This document shows positions 20,974 through 34,995 of a DNA stretch of 34,995 nucleotides, piece after piece; position 1 is the first letter of the stretch, and every line of letters begins with the position of its first letter. The DNA comes from an uncultured Actinomycetes bacterium (GTDB lineage Bacteria > Actinomycetota > Thermoleophilia > Solirubrobacterales > 70-9). The notes beneath the pieces were generated by a model that was given only the letters and a program-made list of their open reading frames with translations, searched no databases and was not told the DNA's origin. The position numbers and the translations under genes were made by a program. The DNA is taken from assembly GCA_946479725.1 (NCBI GenBank), contig CAMLHB010000004.1:1-34995 (forward strand). Reading direction: 5' to 3'.

Positions 20974-20996
20974 TTGGCCAACCAGCCAGGCCGGCA

Positions 20997-21100
20997 GGAG
21001 GGACGGGTGCCCCTCTCACAGAGGCTCATGAGACCACGCCGGCGCCCAGCAACCCGCCCAGCTGCGCGACGGTCTCTGGGAGAGGGGCACCCGTCCCTCC
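20997..21100. repeat. Long inverted repeat, 21-bp perfect arms (hairpin element A)
   Basis: The arms at 20997-21017 and 21080-21100 are perfect reverse complements over 21 bp. After one mismatch they extend by 5 more pairs (CAGAG at 21019-21023 with CTCTG at 21074-21078). The internal 50-60 bases are GC-rich and carry a possible competing stem GAGACC/GGTCTC (21030-21035, 21071-21076). Read on the reverse strand, it begins 7 bases after the MMPL stop. It therefore lies exactly where a terminator would be, upstream of the amidase promoter. The arm shares 13 of 21 positions with the arm of element B at 30858, including the first six bases GGAGGG. Confidence 0.85.
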
Positions 21101-21107
21101 CCACCAC

Positions 21108-23330
21108 CTAAGCCTTAGCCGGCTCGGGCTCGGATTCGCCGCCACCCTCGAAGCTGAAATCGGGAACGAGGCGGTCGAGCCAGCTCGGGAACCACCAGTT
21201 CCACTCGCCCATCAGCTTCATCGCCGCCGGGACCAGGATCAGGCGGACCAGGGTCGCGTCGAGGGCGATCGCCACCGCCGAGCCGAGGCCCAGCTCCTTG
21301 ATCGAGGGGACGCCGGTGAGGACGAAGACGCCGAAGACCGCGGTCATGATCAGCGCCGCCGAGGAGATCGTGCGGGCGCTCGAGGAGAGGCCCTCGGCGA
21401 CGGCGCGTTCGTTTTCGCCGTGGGCCATGTAACGCTCGCGGATCCGCGACATCAGGAAGACCTCGTAGTCCATCGAGAGGCCGAAGACGATCGCGAAGAT
21501 CAGCGGAATGTTGATCGTGTCCAACGCCCCCTGGCTTTCGAAGCCGAGGAAGCCGTCGAACCACCCCCACTGGAAGATCGCGACGAGGACGCCGAAGGCC
21601 GCCCCGATCGAGAGCAGGTTCATCAGCACCGCCTTCAGCGGCAGGACCAGCGAGCGCAGCATCACCATCAGGACCAGGAAGCTGAGCGAGAGGACGAAGA
21701 GGATGATCTTCCACATCGAGCCGCTGACCTGGTGGCGGACGTCGTCGCCGCGGGCGGTCTCGCCGCCGACGTTGACTTCGGCCTGCTGGGCCAGGGCAGA
21801 GCCGGGGACGACGGTGTCGCGGAGGCGGCCGACCAGCGCCACCGCCGCGTCGGACTCGCTCGGCGCGCTCGGGGTGGCCTGAATCAGCACCGCATCGCCG
21901 GCGTAAACGGGTTTGTCCACGGCGGTGATGCCTGGGGTGGCGGCGACTTCGCGGACGAAGCCGGCGACCGCCGCTTTGCCCGCCGCGCCGGGGGCGCCGC
22001 CGAAGCCGGCGACGATCTGGATCGGGTCGGTGCCGCCGCCGAGCTGGTCGGAGGCCAGTTCGTTGCCGACCCGGACGTCGCTGTCCTTGGGGAACTGGGC
22101 GATCGCTTCGGTCCCGGTCTGCAGCGAGAGCAGCGGGCTGGCGAGGAAGAGCAGGATCGCCGCGACGCCGATCACCGCGGTCCAGGGCCGCGCCATCACC
22201 CGCACGGTCCAGGCGCGCCAGAAGCGGTTTTTCTCCGTCGCCACCTGGGCGGCGCTCTTGCGCCGGTAGAAGCGGCGGCCGAAGAAGCGCTCGACCCGGC
22301 CGACGATCCCGCCCGGCAGCACCCGGTCGCCGAGCATCGCGATCAGCGCCGGCAGCAGCGTCGTCGCGGTGAGGATCGAGACCGCGACCACGGTCATCGC
22401 CCCCAGCGCCATCGAGCGCAGCGCCTGGTTGTCGACCATCCACAGCCCGGCCAGGGAGATGATCACCGCGAGGCCCGAGAAGGTGACGGCGAGGCCCGAG
22501 GTCGAGAGCGAGAGCGACCGCGCCTCGGCCGGGTCGTGGCCCGCCTCACGCTCCTCGCGGTAGCGGGCGAGGATGAAGAGCGAGTAGTCGACGGCGACGC
22601 CGATCCCGATCATCGAGGCCATGTTGGTGACGAAGACCGAGGTCTCCAGTTGCAGCGAGAAGAAGTAGATCAGCGCCCCGGTGACGAGGACGCTGACGAA
22701 GCCGAGCGCCAGCGGCAGCGCCGCCGCGGCGAGCGATCCGAAGACGACGAGGAGGATGATCGCGACGATCGGGAACCCGGTCCCCTCGGCCTTGGCCAGG
22801 TCTTCCTTGGAGATTTCCTGCATCCCCGCCCAGATCGTCGGCTGCCCAACCAGGTAGGGAGTGACACCGGCCGTGGCGTTCCCGGGCTCGAGGTCTTCGC
22901 GCAGCGTCGCGGCCGGATCGATCAGCTCGTCCGAGGAAAGGTCGCTGCGCAGCGGCACCAGCACCACGTCCGTGCCCTGCAGCTGCCTGCGCGCCAGCGC
23001 CGCCGTGGCCGGCGGCAAGGTGACGTCGTCGAGGGTCGCAACCTCCTTGCGGACCCGCGTCACGGCGGCAGCCCGCTCGGCCGCGCTCGCCCCCGGCGCC
23101 GCCTGCAACACGACGCCGATCCCGTTCGCCTTGTCGCCGAATTCGTCCTGCAGCGCTTCGCTCACCTTCATCGACTGGCTGCCCGGAACGTCGAAGCCCC
23201 CGCCGGTCAGGTGATCGGTCTGTTTCGAGGCGAACGGCAGCGCCAGCGCCACGATCAGCACCCAAGCCGCGACCACCCAACGGCGGCGTCGCCCCAGGAA
23301 CCCAGCCAGTGAACTCATCGCCTCTCGCAT
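21108..23330 (-). CDS. MMPL-family RND transporter
   Basis: A 740-aa membrane protein with the RND/MMPL architecture. There is one N-terminal helix (about 17-35), a periplasmic-type loop (about 40-180) and helices around IVAIILLVVFGSLAAAALPLALG. The MMPL signature MIGIGVAVDYSLFILARYREER follows, then a second external loop and a repeated helix set containing FGLSMDYEVFLMSRIRE. The Asp residues in VAVDYS and GLSMDYE are the proton-relay positions. MMPL proteins in actinobacteria export lipids or hydrophobic compounds; the cargo here is unknown. GGGAG lies about 7 bases before ATG 23330; ATG 23318 is an alternative start. No regulator gene is adjacent, but tandem CRP-like sites lie in the divergent gap to corA. 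Confidence 0.93.
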   Translation of the reverse strand: MREAMSSLAGFLGRRRRWVVAAWVLIVALALPFASKQTDHLTGGGFDVPGSQSMKVSEALQDEFGDKANGIGVVLQAAPGASAAERAAAVTRVRKEVATLDDVTLPPATAALARRQLQGTDVVLVPLRSDLSSDELIDPAATLREDLEPGNATAGVTPYLVGQPTIWAGMQEISKEDLAKAEGTGFPIVAIILLVVFGSLAAAALPLALGFVSVLVTGALIYFFSLQLETSVFVTNMASMIGIGVAVDYSLFILARYREEREAGHDPAEARSLSLSTSGLAVTFSGLAVIISLAGLWMVDNQALRSMALGAMTVVAVSILTATTLLPALIAMLGDRVLPGGIVGRVERFFGRRFYRRKSAAQVATEKNRFWRAWTVRVMARPWTAVIGVAAILLFLASPLLSLQTGTEAIAQFPKDSDVRVGNELASDQLGGGTDPIQIVAGFGGAPGAAGKAAVAGFVREVAATPGITAVDKPVYAGDAVLIQATPSAPSESDAAVALVGRLRDTVVPGSALAQQAEVNVGGETARGDDVRHQVSGSMWKIILFVLSLSFLVLMVMLRSLVLPLKAVLMNLLSIGAAFGVLVAIFQWGWFDGFLGFESQGALDTINIPLIFAIVFGLSMDYEVFLMSRIRERYMAHGENERAVAEGLSSSARTISSAALIMTAVFGVFVLTGVPSIKELGLGSAVAIALDATLVRLILVPAAMKLMGEWNWWFPSWLDRLVPDFSFEGGGESEPEPAKA

Positions 23331-23393
23331 GCCATCTCCCTCGTCGCTTTGGCCGTGTAGCCAGGAGCCTCCCCCGCGACGGGGACCCGGGTC

Positions 23394-23426
23394 TGTGAGG
23401 CCGGTCACTTCGTGAGGGGCGTCACG
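23394..23426. promoter_or_regulatory. Tandem CRP/FNR-like sites between MMPL and corA genes
   Basis: Two copies of GTGA-N6-TCAC (23395-23408 and 23412-23425) lie in direct tandem with 17-bp spacing. The first, TGTGAGGCCGGTCACT, differs from the CRP consensus TGTGA-N6-TCACA at one position. They sit 23-53 bases upstream of the corA ATG, and would overlap its promoter. Confidence 0.45.
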
Positions 23427-23435
23427 CGCACCTCG

Positions 23436-23441
23436 TAACCT
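23436..23441 (+). promoter_or_regulatory. -10 element of corA
   Basis: TAACCT ends 6 bases before the ATG at 23448; no Shine-Dalgarno. Probably leaderless. The tandem CRP-like sites cover the -35 region. Confidence 0.45.
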
Positions 23442-23447
23442 GGGCCG

Positions 23448-24413
23448 ATGATCGTCGACTGCGCGGCCTATGAGCGGGGGACGCGGCGTGCGGGGAAGCT
23501 CGCGGTCGAGGAGGCAAGCGAGGCCGCGGGTGCGGAGGGGACGTTCGTCTGGGTCGGGGTGGTCGAGCCGGGCGAGGAGGAGATGAAGGCGGTGGCGGCC
23601 GAGTTCGGGCTGCATGAGCTGGCTGTAGAGGATGCGGTGCGGGCGCACCAGCGACCGAAGGTGGAGGAGTACGGGGAGACGGTCCACGTGGTGGTGAAGA
23701 CGGCGCGTTACGTCGATCCCGAGGAGGTGATCGAGCTGGGGGAGGTTTCGGTCTTCGTCGCCCCCAATTTCGTGATCACCGTCCGCCACGGGGAGGCCGA
23801 CCTGGCGCCGGTGCGGGAGCGGCTCGAGCAGCGGCCCGACCTGCTGGAGAAGGGACCGGGCGCGGTCCTCTACGCGATCCTCGACCACGTCGTCGACCGC
23901 TACATCGAAGCGGCCCAGGGCTTTGACGACGACGTGCGCGAAGTCGAGCTGCAGGTCTTCGGCGAAGGGCAGAACCCGACCGAGCGGATCTACAAGCTCG
24001 AGCGCGAGGTGCTGGAGTTCCAGGCGGCGACGGTGCCGCTGGGGGAAGCGCTGGAAGAGCTCTGCGCCAACAATTACGCCGTCGTCCCCTCCACCCTGCA
24101 CGAGTACTTCCGCGACGTCGACGACCACCTGGCCCGGGTCGCGACCCGGATCGAGAACTTCCGCCAGCTGCTCGACAGCGCCCTGGAAGCGAACCTGACC
24201 CAGGTCTCGATGCGCCAGAACGAAGACATGCGGAAGATCTCCGCCTGGGTGGCGATCGCCGTGGTGCCGACGATGATCGCCGGCATCTACGGGATGAACT
24301 TCAAGCACATGCCCGAGCTGGGATGGACGCTCGGCTATCCCGCGGTGCTGACCCTGATCCTCGCGGTCTGCCTCTTCCTCTACTGGCGCTTCAAGCGCGC
24401 CGGCTGGCTGTAA
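23448..24413 (+). CDS. corA: CorA-type magnesium/cobalt transporter
   Basis: A 321-aa CorA/2-TM GxN channel that imports Mg2+ as a pentamer. A soluble N-terminal alpha/beta domain and long helices (up to about residue 260) precede two C-terminal transmembrane helices. The selectivity motif YGMNF occurs at about 281-285, followed by MPELGW in the external loop and a basic tail (FKRAGWL). The usual MPEL loop is conserved. The first quarter uses mostly G-ending codons and the rest C-ending ones. It converges with the TetR-type gene 15 bases downstream. Confidence 0.93.
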   Translation: MIVDCAAYERGTRRAGKLAVEEASEAAGAEGTFVWVGVVEPGEEEMKAVAAEFGLHELAVEDAVRAHQRPKVEEYGETVHVVVKTARYVDPEEVIELGEVSVFVAPNFVITVRHGEADLAPVRERLEQRPDLLEKGPGAVLYAILDHVVDRYIEAAQGFDDDVREVELQVFGEGQNPTERIYKLEREVLEFQAATVPLGEALEELCANNYAVVPSTLHEYFRDVDDHLARVATRIENFRQLLDSALEANLTQVSMRQNEDMRKISAWVAIAVVPTMIAGIYGMNFKHMPELGWTLGYPAVLTLILAVCLFLYWRFKRAGWL

Positions 24414-30218: not shown

Positions 30219-30851
30219 ATGGAGGGTCATTCCCGCAGCGAGAAGCTCTCCGCTTCTCCCCCACTTTTCAAGAGCGACTTCCTCAACTTCTTCTCCCGGG
30301 TCCACCCCGCGGTGCCGGCGGTCGTCTTCGTCCCGGTGGTGGTGGCGATGGAGTGGATCGGGGCGGATCGCGGCTGGGCGATCTGGCAGCTGGCGCTGCT
30401 GACCCTGGCCGGGGTCGCCGTCTGGACCCTGACCGAGTACTGGCTGCACCGGCTCGTCTTCCACTGGGAGCCCGACAACGCCTTCGGCCGCCGCATGCAC
30501 TTCATCATCCACGGCATCCACCACGACCATCCCAACGACAAGCTGCGGCTGGTGATGCCGCCGTCGGTCTCGATCCCGCTGGCTGCGCTCTTCTTCGTCG
30601 GCTTCTGGGCGCTCCTCGGAGATGCGGCCTATCCGACCTTCGCGGGCTTCCTCCTCGGCTACCTCTTCTACGACTACACGCACTACTACGTGCATCACTT
30701 CGTGCCAAAGACGGAGTTTGGGAAGCGGCTGCGGGAACACCACATGCGGCACCATTTTCAGGACCACAGCTACGGGTACGGGGTTTCCTCGCCGCTTTGG
30801 GATCACGTGTTTCGGACTTATCCGAAGAAGCGGAGCAAGTACCGGGGGTAG
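30219..30851 (+). CDS. Fatty-acid hydroxylase / sterol desaturase superfamily protein
   Basis: A 210-aa integral-membrane diiron enzyme of the superfamily that includes fatty-acid 2-hydroxylase. The histidine clusters are visible in order: HRLVFH (77-82), HGIHHDH (98-104), HYYVHH (155-160) and HHMRHHF plus H183 (174-183). Four hydrophobic stretches surround them. The arrangement most resembles bacterial fatty-acid 2-hydroxylase-like (FA2H without cytochrome b5). The likely reaction is O2-dependent hydroxylation of an acyl chain, but the substrate is inferred. The last third uses unusually many G- and T-ending codons. Hairpin element B begins 6 bases after its stop. Confidence 0.88.
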   Translation: MEGHSRSEKLSASPPLFKSDFLNFFSRVHPAVPAVVFVPVVVAMEWIGADRGWAIWQLALLTLAGVAVWTLTEYWLHRLVFHWEPDNAFGRRMHFIIHGIHHDHPNDKLRLVMPPSVSIPLAALFFVGFWALLGDAAYPTFAGFLLGYLFYDYTHYYVHHFVPKTEFGKRLREHHMRHHFQDHSYGYGVSSPLWDHVFRTYPKKRSKYRG

Positions 30852-30857
30852 CGGTCG

Positions 30858-30977
30858 GGAGGGTCCGGTGGGGGTCGTTCGGAGCACCTCCGCCGCGTGT
30901 GTCGCCTGCTGCTGACGCCTCGGGCGTCGGTGGCGCGGCTACATGCTGAGTACCTCACGACCCCCACCGGACCCTCC
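30858..30977. repeat. Long inverted repeat, 21-bp perfect arms (hairpin element B)
   Basis: The arms at 30858-30878 and 30957-30977 are perfect 21-bp reverse complements, 78 bases apart. An inner hairpin GACGCC-TCG-GGCGTC occupies 30914-30928. It starts 6 bases after the hydroxylase stop. Its distal arm touches the TGTCACA -35 of the ECF41 promoter, so it separates the two transcription units. It shares length, location relative to a stop and 13 of 21 arm positions (GGAGGG-N-C-N-GGTG-N4-TC) with element A at 20997. Confidence 0.85.
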
Positions 30978-31004
30978 TGTCACAGCGTGGGATGCTGTTT
31001 CGTC
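30978..31004 (+). promoter_or_regulatory. ECF41 sigma-factor promoter (TGTCACA-N16-CGTC)
   Basis: TGTCACA at 30978-30984, exactly 16 bases, then CGTC at 31001-31004. This is the published motif recognised by ECF41 sigma factors. The oxidoreductase ATG follows 8 bases after CGTC, so the transcript should be leaderless or nearly so. The sigma factor encoded by the second gene of this operon belongs to ECF41, which makes autoregulation very likely. Confidence 0.82.
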
Positions 31005-31012
31005 TAGGAAGC

Positions 31013-32212
31013 ATGGACACGAAAAGGAAAGCTGTGGTTGTCGGTGGCGGGCCGGCTGGGCTGACTGCTGCTGGGCGGTTGGCTGAGGGTGGTCTTGAGG
31101 CTGTGCTGCTGGAGGCGAGCTCTCATCTAGGTGGGAGAGCTGCTTCGGAGGTGCGGGAGGGGTTTGTGCTCAATCAGGGGCCGCATGCGCTTTATGTCGG
31201 GGGGCCGGCGCGGCGGGAACTGGATGCGATGGGGATCGAGCTGGATTGGTGGCAGCCGGCTTCGGCCGCATCGGTTTTTCCTCGGGACGGGAAGCCGAAG
31301 CGGACGCTGGGCGGGACGGGGCAGCTGGGGCGGTGGTTCTTGGGGTTGCAGCGGATGGAGCCGGAGGAGCTGGCGGGGATCTCGGTGGCGGAGTGGCTGC
31401 GGCGGAGCCTGCGGTCGGAGCGGGCGCGGGCGAGTGCGACGGCGCTGGTGCGGGTGACGACGTTCGTGGCCGACCAGGAGAGCCTCAGCGCGGACGTGGC
31501 GGCGACCCAGTTGAAGATCGGGCTCTACCCCGGAGTCCGCTACCTGCGCGGGGGTTGGCAGTCGCTGGTCAACGCGCTGGCGGCGAAAGCGGAGGCGAGC
31601 GGGGCGACACTGCGGACGCGCGCCGCGGTGCGCGGCCTGAAGCCGGGCCCGCAGGGCTGGGAGCTGAGCCTCGACGGCGAGACGCTCGGCGCCGACGTCG
31701 TGGTCGTCGCTGCCGGCGGTCCCGACCCGGTCGAGAAGTTGCTCGGCGCAGAGACCCCCGCCGCCCCTGGGCCGGCAGCCGAGCTGAGCGTCCTCGACCT
31801 CGGGCTGACCAGCCTGCCCCGGCGCTCGATGCGCTTCGCCCTCGGGATCGACAAGCCGACCTACCTCTCCCGCCACTCGCCGCCCGAGCACCGCAACGGC
31901 GTTCTCCTCAGCCTCGCCAGCTACGCGCGCGAACCGCGCCAGGCGCTGGAGGAACTGGCCGACTCGGTCCAGCCCGGCTGGCGCGAGCGGCTGATGCTCG
32001 AGCGCTTCCTGCCGCGCATGGTCGCGGTCTCGGCCACCCCCACTCCCGCGAGCGGCGGCCTCGCCGGCCGGCCGGCGGTCGACCGCGGCGACGGCCTCTA
32101 CCTCGCCGGCGATTGGATCGGCCCGGAGGGCTGGCTGGTCGACTCGGCGCTCGCCAGCGGCGCCGCGGCCGCGGCAGCCGCCTTGCGCACCCCGGCCCCG
32201 GCGGTGGCGTGA
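31013..32212 (+). CDS. FAD-dependent NAD(P)-binding Rossmann oxidoreductase (phytoene desaturase/amine oxidase-like)
   Basis: A 399-aa flavoprotein. The dinucleotide-binding loop VVVGGGPAGLTAAGRLAEGG is at 8-27, followed by LLEASSHLGGRAAS (GGR motif at 40-42). The C-terminal FAD signature GDGLYLAGDWIGPEGWLVDSALASG is near 360-385. The fold matches the phytoene desaturase / protoporphyrinogen oxidase / flavin amine oxidase group; the substrate cannot be read. It has the ECF41 promoter directly upstream and overlaps the sigma gene by four bases (GTGA). It therefore takes the place of the COE-type oxidoreductase usually found beside ECF41 factors. The 5' third uses G- and T-ending codons and the 3' part C-ending ones. 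Confidence 0.87.
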   Translation: MDTKRKAVVVGGGPAGLTAAGRLAEGGLEAVLLEASSHLGGRAASEVREGFVLNQGPHALYVGGPARRELDAMGIELDWWQPASAASVFPRDGKPKRTLGGTGQLGRWFLGLQRMEPEELAGISVAEWLRRSLRSERARASATALVRVTTFVADQESLSADVAATQLKIGLYPGVRYLRGGWQSLVNALAAKAEASGATLRTRAAVRGLKPGPQGWELSLDGETLGADVVVVAAGGPDPVEKLLGAETPAAPGPAAELSVLDLGLTSLPRRSMRFALGIDKPTYLSRHSPPEHRNGVLLSLASYAREPRQALEELADSVQPGWRERLMLERFLPRMVAVSATPTPASGGLAGRPAVDRGDGLYLAGDWIGPEGWLVDSALASGAAAAAAALRTPAPAVA

Positions 32213-33111
32213 GATCTCCTACGAGCGGCGACGCCTTCGAGGCCTGCCGCCCGCGCCTGCTCGGCATCGCCTACGGCCTGCTCGGCGAGCTGACCGAGGC
32301 CGAGGACGTCGTCCAGGACGCCTGGCTGCGCTGGGACGGCGCCGACGCCGAGGCGGTCCGCAACCCGGAAGCGTTCCTCGTCGCCGTCACCACCCGCCTG
32401 GCGATCGACCGGCTGCGCTCCGCCCGGACGCGGCGCGAGGTCTACGTCGGGCCCTGGCTCCCCGAGCCGCTGCTCACCGACCCAGAGACGCCGGAGACGC
32501 AGACGATCGAGGCCGAGCGGCTGAGCCTGGCGCTGCTGGCGGCGCTGGAGCGGCTGAACCCGGTCGAGCGGGCGGTCCTCGTCCTCCGCGACGTCTTCGA
32601 CTTCGAGTACGCGGAGATCGCCGACGTCGTCGAGCGCACCCCCGCCAACGTCCGCCAGATCGCCAAGCGCGCCCGCGAGCACGCCGGTAACGCCAGCCGC
32701 AGGCGCGCCGTCAGCGACGAGGAGCGAGAGCGCCTTGCGAACGCCTTCATGCTCGCCGCGATCTCCGGCGAGGTCGAGACGATCCGCAACCTCCTCGCCG
32801 CCGACGCGGTCATGTACTCCGACGGGGGCGGGGTCGTCGTCGCCGCCCGCAAGCCGATCTACGGCGCCGACAAGATCGCCCGCTTCATGGTCGGCGTCCA
32901 GCGCAAGGACGCCTATCCCGACGATCCCATCTTCACCCGGGTCCTGGTCAACGGCGACCCGGGCGTGCGGATGGACAGCGCCAGCGAGGGCTTCCTCAGC
33001 ATCGTCGCCGTCGAGGTCGCCGAGGGAGCGATCCAGAGCGTCCGCTTCTTCAACAACCCGGAGCGCTTCGCGGCACTCAAAGCACCAGGCGCACACCGAC
33101 GGTCCCGCTAG
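32209..33111 (+). CDS. sigJ: ECF41-type RNA polymerase sigma factor with SnoaL-like C-terminal domain
   Basis: A 300-aa sigma factor. Region 2 (about 10-75) reads RPRLLGIAYGLLGELTEAED, VQDAWLRW and LAIDRLRSARTRR; region 4 (about 105-160) contains LNPVERAVLVLRDVFDFEYAEIAD and RTPANVRQIAKRAR. The three ECF41 marks are present: WLPEP at 83-87 in the linker, DGGG at 205-208 in the C-terminal SnoaL-like domain, and NPERF at 283-287 in place of NPDKL. The C-terminal domain in this group modulates activity in place of an anti-sigma factor, and no anti-sigma gene is present. GTG at 32209 is the start, overlapping the oxidoreductase stop as GTGA. Confidence 0.93.
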   Translation: MRSPTSGDAFEACRPRLLGIAYGLLGELTEAEDVVQDAWLRWDGADAEAVRNPEAFLVAVTTRLAIDRLRSARTRREVYVGPWLPEPLLTDPETPETQTIEAERLSLALLAALERLNPVERAVLVLRDVFDFEYAEIADVVERTPANVRQIAKRAREHAGNASRRRAVSDEERERLANAFMLAAISGEVETIRNLLAADAVMYSDGGGVVVAARKPIYGADKIARFMVGVQRKDAYPDDPIFTRVLVNGDPGVRMDSASEGFLSIVAVEVAEGAIQSVRFFNNPERFAALKAPGAHRRSR

Positions 33112-33152
33112 GCACATATCTGAAATATCTCGTTGACTTCGCTCTGCGGGGT

Positions 33153-33169
33153 GTCACAGTGTGTGTGAC
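33153..33169. promoter_or_regulatory. Operator-like inverted repeat upstream of the AT-hook gene
   Basis: GTCACA (33153-33158) and TGTGAC (33164-33169) are perfect 6-bp inverted copies 5 bases apart. They lie in the promoter region of the next gene, downstream of a -35-like TTGACT (33133-33138). The bound factor is unknown. Confidence 0.4.
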
Positions 33170-33225
33170 TCTGAAAGACTCCTCTCCAGGGTTTCACTTA
33201 ACTCTTTTGGATGGAAAGGAACTAG

Positions 33226-33621
33226 ATGCCCCCCACCACTAACCACCTCGACGTCGCCCGCGAGGCTCTTGAGCGCACCGTTCGCGAGCTCGAGGATCAG
33301 CTGAAGCAGGCTGAGCAAGCGCTGGCCGCGCTTGGCGGCAGAGTCGTCCGCCGCGGTCCCGGCCGCCCCCGCGGCAGCGCCAACAAAGCGACTAAAAGCA
33401 CCCGCTCGACCGGCGCTCCCCGCCGCCGCCGCAAACGCCGTGGCGGGACGCGCGCGGATCAGGCCGTGAAACTGATCGAGCAGAACCCCGGGATCAGCGC
33501 CTCCGACGTCGCCAAACAGATGAAAATCAAGCCGAACTATCTGTACCGCGTTCTCGGTGACCTCGAGAAAGAAGGTCGCGTGAAGAAGAACGGTCGCCAG
33601 TACAGCCCGGCCGGCGGCTGA
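33226..33621 (+). CDS. AT-hook / winged-helix nucleoid-type DNA-binding protein
   Basis: A 131-aa basic protein in three parts. Residues 7-38 form a predicted coiled coil (EALERTVRELEDQLKQAEQALAAL). Residues 43-50 are an AT-hook (RGPGRPRG), and a second basic patch RRRRKRR is at 66-72. Residues 75-126 form a winged helix-turn-helix (ADQAVKLIEQNPGISASDVAKQM, then NYLYRVLGDLEKEGRVKK). The design, oligomerisation plus minor-groove and sequence-reading parts, suggests a nucleoid-associated protein. It is not Lsr2 or H-NS by sequence. A GGAAAGGA ribosome site, a leader of about 60 bases and a classical U-tract terminator suggest strong, independent expression. Confidence 0.8.
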   Translation: MPPTTNHLDVAREALERTVRELEDQLKQAEQALAALGGRVVRRGPGRPRGSANKATKSTRSTGAPRRRRKRRGGTRADQAVKLIEQNPGISASDVAKQMKIKPNYLYRVLGDLEKEGRVKKNGRQYSPAGG

Positions 33622-33646
33622 TCGGTACCACCGTTACTGAACTGGA

Positions 33647-33676
33647 AGAGGCCGGCTCGCGCCGGCCTCTTTTTTT
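33647..33676 (+). terminator. Classical rho-independent terminator
   Basis: AGAGGCCGGC (33647-33656), loop TCGC, GCCGGCCTCT (33661-33670), then a run of T residues to 33676. It is the only hairpin in this window with a proper U-tract. It ends the AT-hook gene 25 bases after its stop. Confidence 0.92.
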
Positions 33677-33696
33677 GCCTTGAGTCGGGCCGGCGC

Positions 33697-34995
<1,299 letters not shown>

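Follow-up and report, generated by a model that had tools for sequence, protein, structure and literature searches.

In a soil actinobacterium we find a two-gene switch in which an ECF41 sigma factor probably turns on its own operon and, with it, a flavin enzyme. The operon is probably autoregulated and follows ordinary ECF41 logic with an uncommon enzyme, its activity being set by the SnoaL-like domain fused to the sigma factor. Operons built in this way have been described before, and the flavoprotein partnership is found also in a second phylum, where it comes with its own version of the promoter.

The operon and its sigma factor

The window, that is, the whole stretch of 34,995 nucleotides that was analysed, contains the following features.

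30853..30982, plus strand: structured repeat that folds into a hairpin, placed between the promoter and the upstream gene's stop codon, delimited by a covariance model and overlapping the first bases of the -35 element
30978..30984, plus strand: -35 element TGTCACA, by sequence match, kept in the nearest relative
31001..31004, plus strand: -10 element CGTC behind a 16-nt spacer, by sequence match, kept in the nearest relative
31012..31014, plus strand: predicted transcription start of a leaderless mRNA, from the ATG lying 8 nt behind the -10 element
31013, plus strand: ATG of the flavoprotein gene, 8 nt behind the -10 element
31013..32212, plus strand: FAD-dependent flavoprotein of the amine-oxidase superfamily, 399 residues (Pfam, curated models, Foldseek)
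32209..33111, plus strand: sigma factor of the ECF41/SigJ type with a C-terminal SnoaL-like extension, GTG start (SigJ model, alignment with 5xe7, tree)
32455..32469, plus strand: WLPEP linker motif (sequence, homologue survey)
32821..32832, plus strand: DGGG motif of the extension (sequence, homologue survey)
33055..33069, plus strand: NPERF motif (sequence), the place of NPxKL in most ECF41 factors surveyed

The preliminary description had located this architecture exactly. TGTCACA-N16-CGTC (30978-31004) is followed 8 nt later by an ATG, the first gene encodes a flavin enzyme with a Pfam Amino_oxidase domain, and the second encodes a sigma factor, whose preferred frame runs from the GTG at 32209 to 33111 and overlaps the flavoprotein stop codon by 4 nt (GTGA). 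With spacers of 14 to 18 nt the motif occurs a single time in the window, while shuffled windows gave a mean of 0.04 matches and at least one match in 4 of 100 shuffles. A Pfam scan of four proteins, the operon's two and both flanking ones, assigned the neighbours to FA_hydroxylase and HTH_24; by Pfam neither flank holds an anti-sigma gene, as had been stated, and the WLPEP, DGGG and NPERF motifs also lie where they had been placed.

The sigma factor scores 320 bits against the NCBIfam SigJ model (cut-off 271) and 320.9 bits against TIGR02957, about 2 bits short of the cut-off of 323.25. Using phmmer, its residues 8-288 align with residues 11-299 of Mycobacterium tuberculosis SigJ (PDB 5xe7, 161 bits), which has a SnoaL-like extension (PMC8999054) and a C-terminal motif of its own, NPDKF. 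The Pfam SnoaL domain gave no match in the window protein at E<=0.01. An ECF core with WLPEP in the linker is joined to a SnoaL-like C-terminal extension of about 100 residues, recognised by the full-length match to 5xe7 and the presence of DGGG. A grouping outside ECF41, which the preliminary description had named as a refuting outcome, was not obtained: in a tree of 84 sigma factors the protein stands among the 56 rows on the ECF41 side of a branch with 99% SH-aLRT support.

A C-terminal motif of the NPDKL type is a feature of ECF41 factors. It is not spelled out in the available text of Wecke 2012 (PMC3426412). In a survey of 90 sigma factors (88 from the order together with those of the nearest relative, L001, and of a Myxococcota MAG, L002), WLPEP is present in 81 and DGGG in 80. 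The C-terminal motif reads NPDKL in 46, NPEKL in 16 and another NPxK form in 16, which brings NPxK to 78 of the 90, and it is lacking in 11; NPERF, with R in place of K, occurs once, in L001. The preliminary description had read the change from NPDKL to NPERF as a possible tuning of sensing, a view that loses its support once the closest homologues are considered. NPxRF is present in all 120 of the best listed homologues of the window protein (NPERF in 114, NPDRF in 4, NPKRF and NPQRF in one each). NPERF is accordingly the mark of one clade rather than a local change, as judged from these alignments.

The nearest relative is a Solirubrobacterales MAG of about 2.4 Mb (contig JAICSS010000009.1, L001), which is collinear with the window over the compared stretch and shares 86% identity in the flavoprotein and 84% in the sigma factor. 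TGTCACA-N16-CGTC, the 8-nt gap and the ATG are conserved there while the spacer and the DNA further upstream have diverged, and the gene overlap is kept as ATGA. The genome-wide promoter scan, run on this MAG, returned one match to TGTCACA-N15..17-CGTC, the operon's own, and none to the reversed pattern; the MAG likewise holds one full-length match to TIGR02957, the sigma factor of this operon. These counts suggest that the operon is probably the sole target of its sigma factor, a provisional reading since the MAG may be incomplete.

Most of these features are shared with the ECF41 group as described in Wecke 2012 (PMC3426412): TGTCACA-n16-CGTC, the WLPEP linker, the C-terminal extension, a COE neighbour with the promoter before the COE operon, and the lack of an anti-sigma gene. 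In the R. sphaeroides case the genes of Ecf41Rsp and RSP_0606 overlap as well and were proposed to form an operon, and RSP_0606 was the only other gene induced more than twofold upon overexpression of the sigma factor (PMC3426412). The window differs in three respects. Its sigma factor carries NPxRF instead of NPxKL, the ATG follows the -10 element by 8 nt as opposed to the mapped leaders of 22 and 23 nt, and the enzyme is a flavoprotein, unlike the carboxymuconolactone decarboxylases of the two systems studied, that of Ecf41Rsp included (PMC3426412). In the accessible part of a start-site map of S. meliloti, ECF41 appears just as a reference.

A flavoprotein with sigma partners in two phyla

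The flavoprotein matches Pfam Amino_oxidase (PF01593) with 73.1 bits, far over the gathering cut-off of 19.8, a domain common to the superfamily of amine oxidases, phytoene desaturases and protoporphyrinogen oxidases. Of the label given to it previously, phytoene-desaturase/amine-oxidase-like, the superfamily part therefore holds, but the curated models reject both phytoene desaturase (CrtI, 58.5 bits against a cut-off of 238.1) and HpnE (60.3 against 283.05). Foldseek with the predicted model returned amine oxidases as best matches at a TM of about 0.42, from a weak model; the two structure predictions have mean pLDDT values of 61 and 59, so that no pocket can be read from them.

The enzyme had also been described as standing in place of the usual COE enzyme, which is mistaken. 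Amino_oxidase is one of the Pfam domains by which Wecke 2012 defines COE oxidoreductases, and the same paper reports the COE-then-ECF layout for 107 loci (29%), with the promoter before the COE gene in 97 of these (PMC3426412). Within its own order, the enzyme is nevertheless rare as an ECF41 partner. TIGR02957 finds matches at E<=1e-40 in 106 of 232 genomes of the order, and we inspected 88 such loci, 30 of them fetched and 58 picked among the matches listed. Among these and L001, the flavoprotein adjoins the sigma gene in L104 and L001 only; in L097 and L098 a weak match (4e-7 and 1e-6) lies roughly 1 kb away from the sigma frame. A script picked the first long frame following a promoter match at 68 places, and 64 of these frames were scanned with Pfam. 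They belong to NAD_binding_10 (41) and Epimerase (40, an overlapping set), CMD (13), Pyr_redox_2 (4) and Amino_oxidase (2, one of them from L001). Eight loci (L032, L033, L034, L058, L067, L073, L075 and L114) carry two back-to-back promoter matches, of which one precedes the sigma gene and the other a divergent gene.

In Myxococcota, the phylum of the MAG L002, the flavoprotein profile, searched in 377 genomes at E<=1e-40, finds the family in 45. A SigJ-like sigma gene adjoins it in 28 of the 30 loci that were fetched (L122-L151), on the same strand in 26 of the 28, and by coordinates in 13 of the other 15, which makes 41 of 45. In a tree of 40 flavoproteins a 100% branch separates the 36 family members, L144 and L147 without a sigma gene in the flank included, from four unlinked homologues of the order. 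At the 30 Myxococcota loci with the best TIGR02957 matches, there is no such flavoprotein in the 1.5-kb flanks. Metagenomes add a weak sign of linkage: for 11 of the first 40 listed flavoprotein homologues, the longest contig has the same size as that of a listed sigma homologue.

The Myxococcota sigma factors of these pairs belong to another clade. The 99% SH-aLRT branch of the 84-sigma tree sets the 28 flavoprotein-linked Myxococcota proteins apart from the other 56 rows, which include 30 Myxococcota ECF41 controls, the window, L001 and L104, and six that were tested score 142.6-202.7 bits on SigJ and TIGR02957. An NPxxL/F-type motif is lacking in all 28 (L002 is one of them) and in L104. 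For a single origin of all flavoprotein-linked sigma factors, the AU test gives p 0.221 with 73 rows, 0.042 in a subset of 40 rows that includes ECF41 controls from Myxococcota, and 0.216 when L104 is removed from this subset. Uniting the window's clade with L104 is neither rejected nor shown (p 0.36).

The promoter differs too. GT[AC]AC[ACG]-N16-CGTG precedes 26 of the 30 Myxococcota flavoprotein genes within up to 250 nt, L142 offering just a short upstream stretch for the search. Among spacers of 12-20 other than 16, a single match appears, at 12; the 30 gene bodies contain one match, and shuffles gave a mean of 0.055 and at most 1, a figure that flatters the pattern because it was drawn from the same sequences beforehand. 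Counted over whole loci, GTCAC[AG]-N16-CGTC is present in 20 of 30 ECF41-proper loci of Myxococcota and in 66 of the 88 loci from the order, as compared with 1 of the 30 Myxococcota loci that have the flavoprotein. For GTCAC[AG]-N16-CGTG the corresponding numbers are 0, 2 and 9, and for GTAAC[CG]-N16-CGTG 0, 0 and 17. It is thus the clade of the sigma factor, and not the phylum, with which the -10 element varies. The ATG lies 8 nt behind CGTG in L130, L141 and L144, the last of which has the promoter and no sigma gene in the flank. The accessible portions of the open-licence literature on ECF41/SigJ genomic context contain no CGTG variant of the -10 element.

By these sequence comparisons the same flavoprotein family partners SigJ-like sigma factors of two clades in two phyla. 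The Myxococcota loci share with the window the flavoprotein family, the adjoining SigJ-like sigma gene and the N16-spacer promoter before the flavoprotein gene, and differ in the sigma clade, the C-terminal motif and the -10 element. Recurrence of this kind suggests a specific tie, and it bears on the strongest alternative, in which the flavoprotein would be output only, a stress or detoxifying enzyme unrelated to SnoaL-like sensing, and the sigma factor would respond to a general signal such as redox or membrane state. ECF41 partners are very different enzymes, as the 64 promoter-linked first genes of the order illustrate, and no significant influence of the COE protein YdfG on its partner sigma factor was seen (PMC3426412); against these points stands a flavoprotein that keeps its place beside two sigma clades in two phyla. 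On balance we give the output-only reading slightly less than an even chance. The surroundings of the pair offer no substrate hint and no recurrent third gene: among 63 ORFs scanned at 13 loci, out of 127 picked automatically at 12 Myxococcota loci and L104 and some possibly spurious, no Pfam family occurs in more than three.

Transcript start and neighbouring elements

Across 86 distinct promoters from the ECF41 loci of the order, L001 and the window, the distance from the -10 element to the ATG peaks sharply at 8 nt (16 of 86, the window included). A shoulder extends as far as 11 nt, and distances of 27-38 nt make up a second, broader mode. In L106, one of the 16, the ATG opens just 15 codons. 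Against a background of 0.019 per position the binomial P of the peak is about 1e-11, a descriptive value only, given that the peak was noticed before testing and the loci are related. Among the matches listed, 51 of 120 flavoprotein homologues start at the corresponding residue. Another 21 are annotated from an upstream start, so that the -10 element, again with an 8-nt gap, is translated in frame as MLxRLxxM near the N-terminus; P0002 has the in-frame element in a longer form, bringing the total to 22 of 120.

Wecke 2012 mapped leaders of 22 and 23 nt with a ribosome site in two other organisms, and its table gives 31 and 32 for those same promoters (PMC3426412). If these values are counted from the -10 element, transcription starts about 9 nt behind it, and with the ATG at 8 nt the first transcribed base would be the A of this codon or a base next to it. 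From this spacing we infer that the mRNA probably begins at the flavoprotein ATG and is leaderless.

Immediately upstream of the promoter lies a hairpin. Its arms, 30858-30878 and 30957-30977, form a perfect inverted repeat of 21 bp that ends one base before the -35 element, with an RNA folding z score of -5.6. BLAST of the L001 MAG with this hairpin yields seven matches, some of them short, and none at the same place in L001. The covariance model finds eight matches at seven places in that MAG; across the 232 genomes of the order it reaches five at E<=1e-4, with 8, 9, 1, 1 and 1 matches. Copies L201-L219 come from the genomes G001 and G035; two of the places, L210 and L212, have an identical copy at contig ends. 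The repeat is about 130 nt long. Its outer stem, of 20-odd pairs, covaries, and most of ten aligned copies share a conserved core, GGAGCACCUCC...CUCCAUGCURAGUACC. In a MAFFT alignment of these ten, the arms vary between copies yet pair within each, 24 of 38 pairs having changed on both sides, and the covariation score is 0.427, compared with 0.149 when shuffled and at most 0.102 when slid. Rfam gives no match for 30853-30982 at E<=1, and a related description was not found among the titles of the open-licence literature.

The copies often lie at gene ends. At 13 of the 20 places listed, which represent 19 distinct copies, the repeat starts no more than 20 nt behind a same-strand stop codon, counting frames of at least 110 codons with GC3 over 0.7; at five, a convergent frame ends within 15 nt as well. 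The hairpin is probably a 3'-end element, be it a terminator, a stability element or a mobile one, that stands outside the sigma circuit; it could insulate the promoter from the upstream gene.

This neighbourhood also bears on the view that the operon is driven from elsewhere, by read-through from the FA-hydroxylase gene or by another sigma factor, with the ECF41 motif secondary or a relic. The FA-hydroxylase gene does share the strand of the operon, with its end 126 nt from the motif, but the perfect inverted repeat intervenes between the two, no sigma-70-like site turned up when 30700-33800 was scanned with a simple consensus, the motif is kept in L001, and the -10 element is readable in frame in those 22 of 120 listed homologues. 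We regard such upstream drive as improbable.

Three further elements were observed in the window. A second, divergent hairpin copy (20992-21105, minus strand, 43 bits) follows a long minus-strand gene, 21108-24308, at a distance of 2 nt from its stop codon; by eye the gene product resembles an MMPL-type transporter. A GTCACA-N5-TGTGAC palindrome with its flanks (33151-33181) is identical in L001 (8081-8111) and lies before the HTH gene at 33226; it includes TGTCACA with no CGTC 16 nt further along, and so resembles an operator rather than a promoter of the ECF41 type. Behind the HTH gene, a terminator-like stem with a T run occupies 33644-33673 on the plus strand, with about one such stem expected by chance.

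Proposed feedback and the search for a signal

An ECF41-type promoter before an operon that encodes the sigma factor makes positive feedback the natural reading, and the earlier proposal of such a loop is supported to this extent, at the level of sequence. In the proposed mechanism, the sigma factor would recognise TGTCACA-N16-CGTC before the flavoprotein gene and have it transcribed, and through the 4-nt overlapping stop and start codons the same transcription would yield the sigma factor itself. A weak supply of sigma factor would be kept mostly inactive by its C-terminal domain until a ligand relieves this brake, whereupon positive feedback would raise both proteins. For two other ECF41 factors the COE operon was the only detectable target and the C-terminal part was inhibitory (PMC3426412). 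A direct role of the flavoprotein in repressing or titrating the sigma factor, as an enzyme turned anti-sigma, would suit a recurrent pair with overlapping genes, but the one other COE protein tested, YdfG, had no significant effect (PMC3426412), and we consider this the least probable reading.

What might the ligand be? In the autoregulated operon favoured here, a metabolite of the flavoprotein reaction is a fair guess as ligand of the SnoaL-like domain, from the co-occurrence of the two genes; the preliminary description had likewise inferred a ligand made or consumed by the flavoprotein. YdfG, however, was without significant effect on signalling (PMC3426412). A broader and rather doubtful proposal, to which we give about one chance in four, is that the flavoprotein is the kept unit and a SnoaL-type sigma factor its private regulator in two phyla, the sigma lineage having changed at least once with a matching promoter each time, CGTC for ECF41 and CGTG for the second SigJ-like clade. 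If this were true, one would expect both SnoaL-like domains to bind one and the same small molecule, tied to the flavoprotein reaction, whether by convergence or by common retention.

Under the 8-nt rule, a leaderless start can be tested at many ECF41 promoters, and the two sigma clades provide a natural pair whose -10 elements differ in their final base. As to the signal, the available text of Wecke 2012 gives no inducing condition for ECF41 factors (PMC3426412), and a 2022 review, as far as accessible, names their signals only as likely small molecules (PMC8999054). The search for a ligand becomes narrower with a flavoprotein that accompanies SigJ-like sigma factors in both phyla, and the molecule shared by both domains, should the proposal of a kept flavoprotein hold, would be the first ligand for ECF41.
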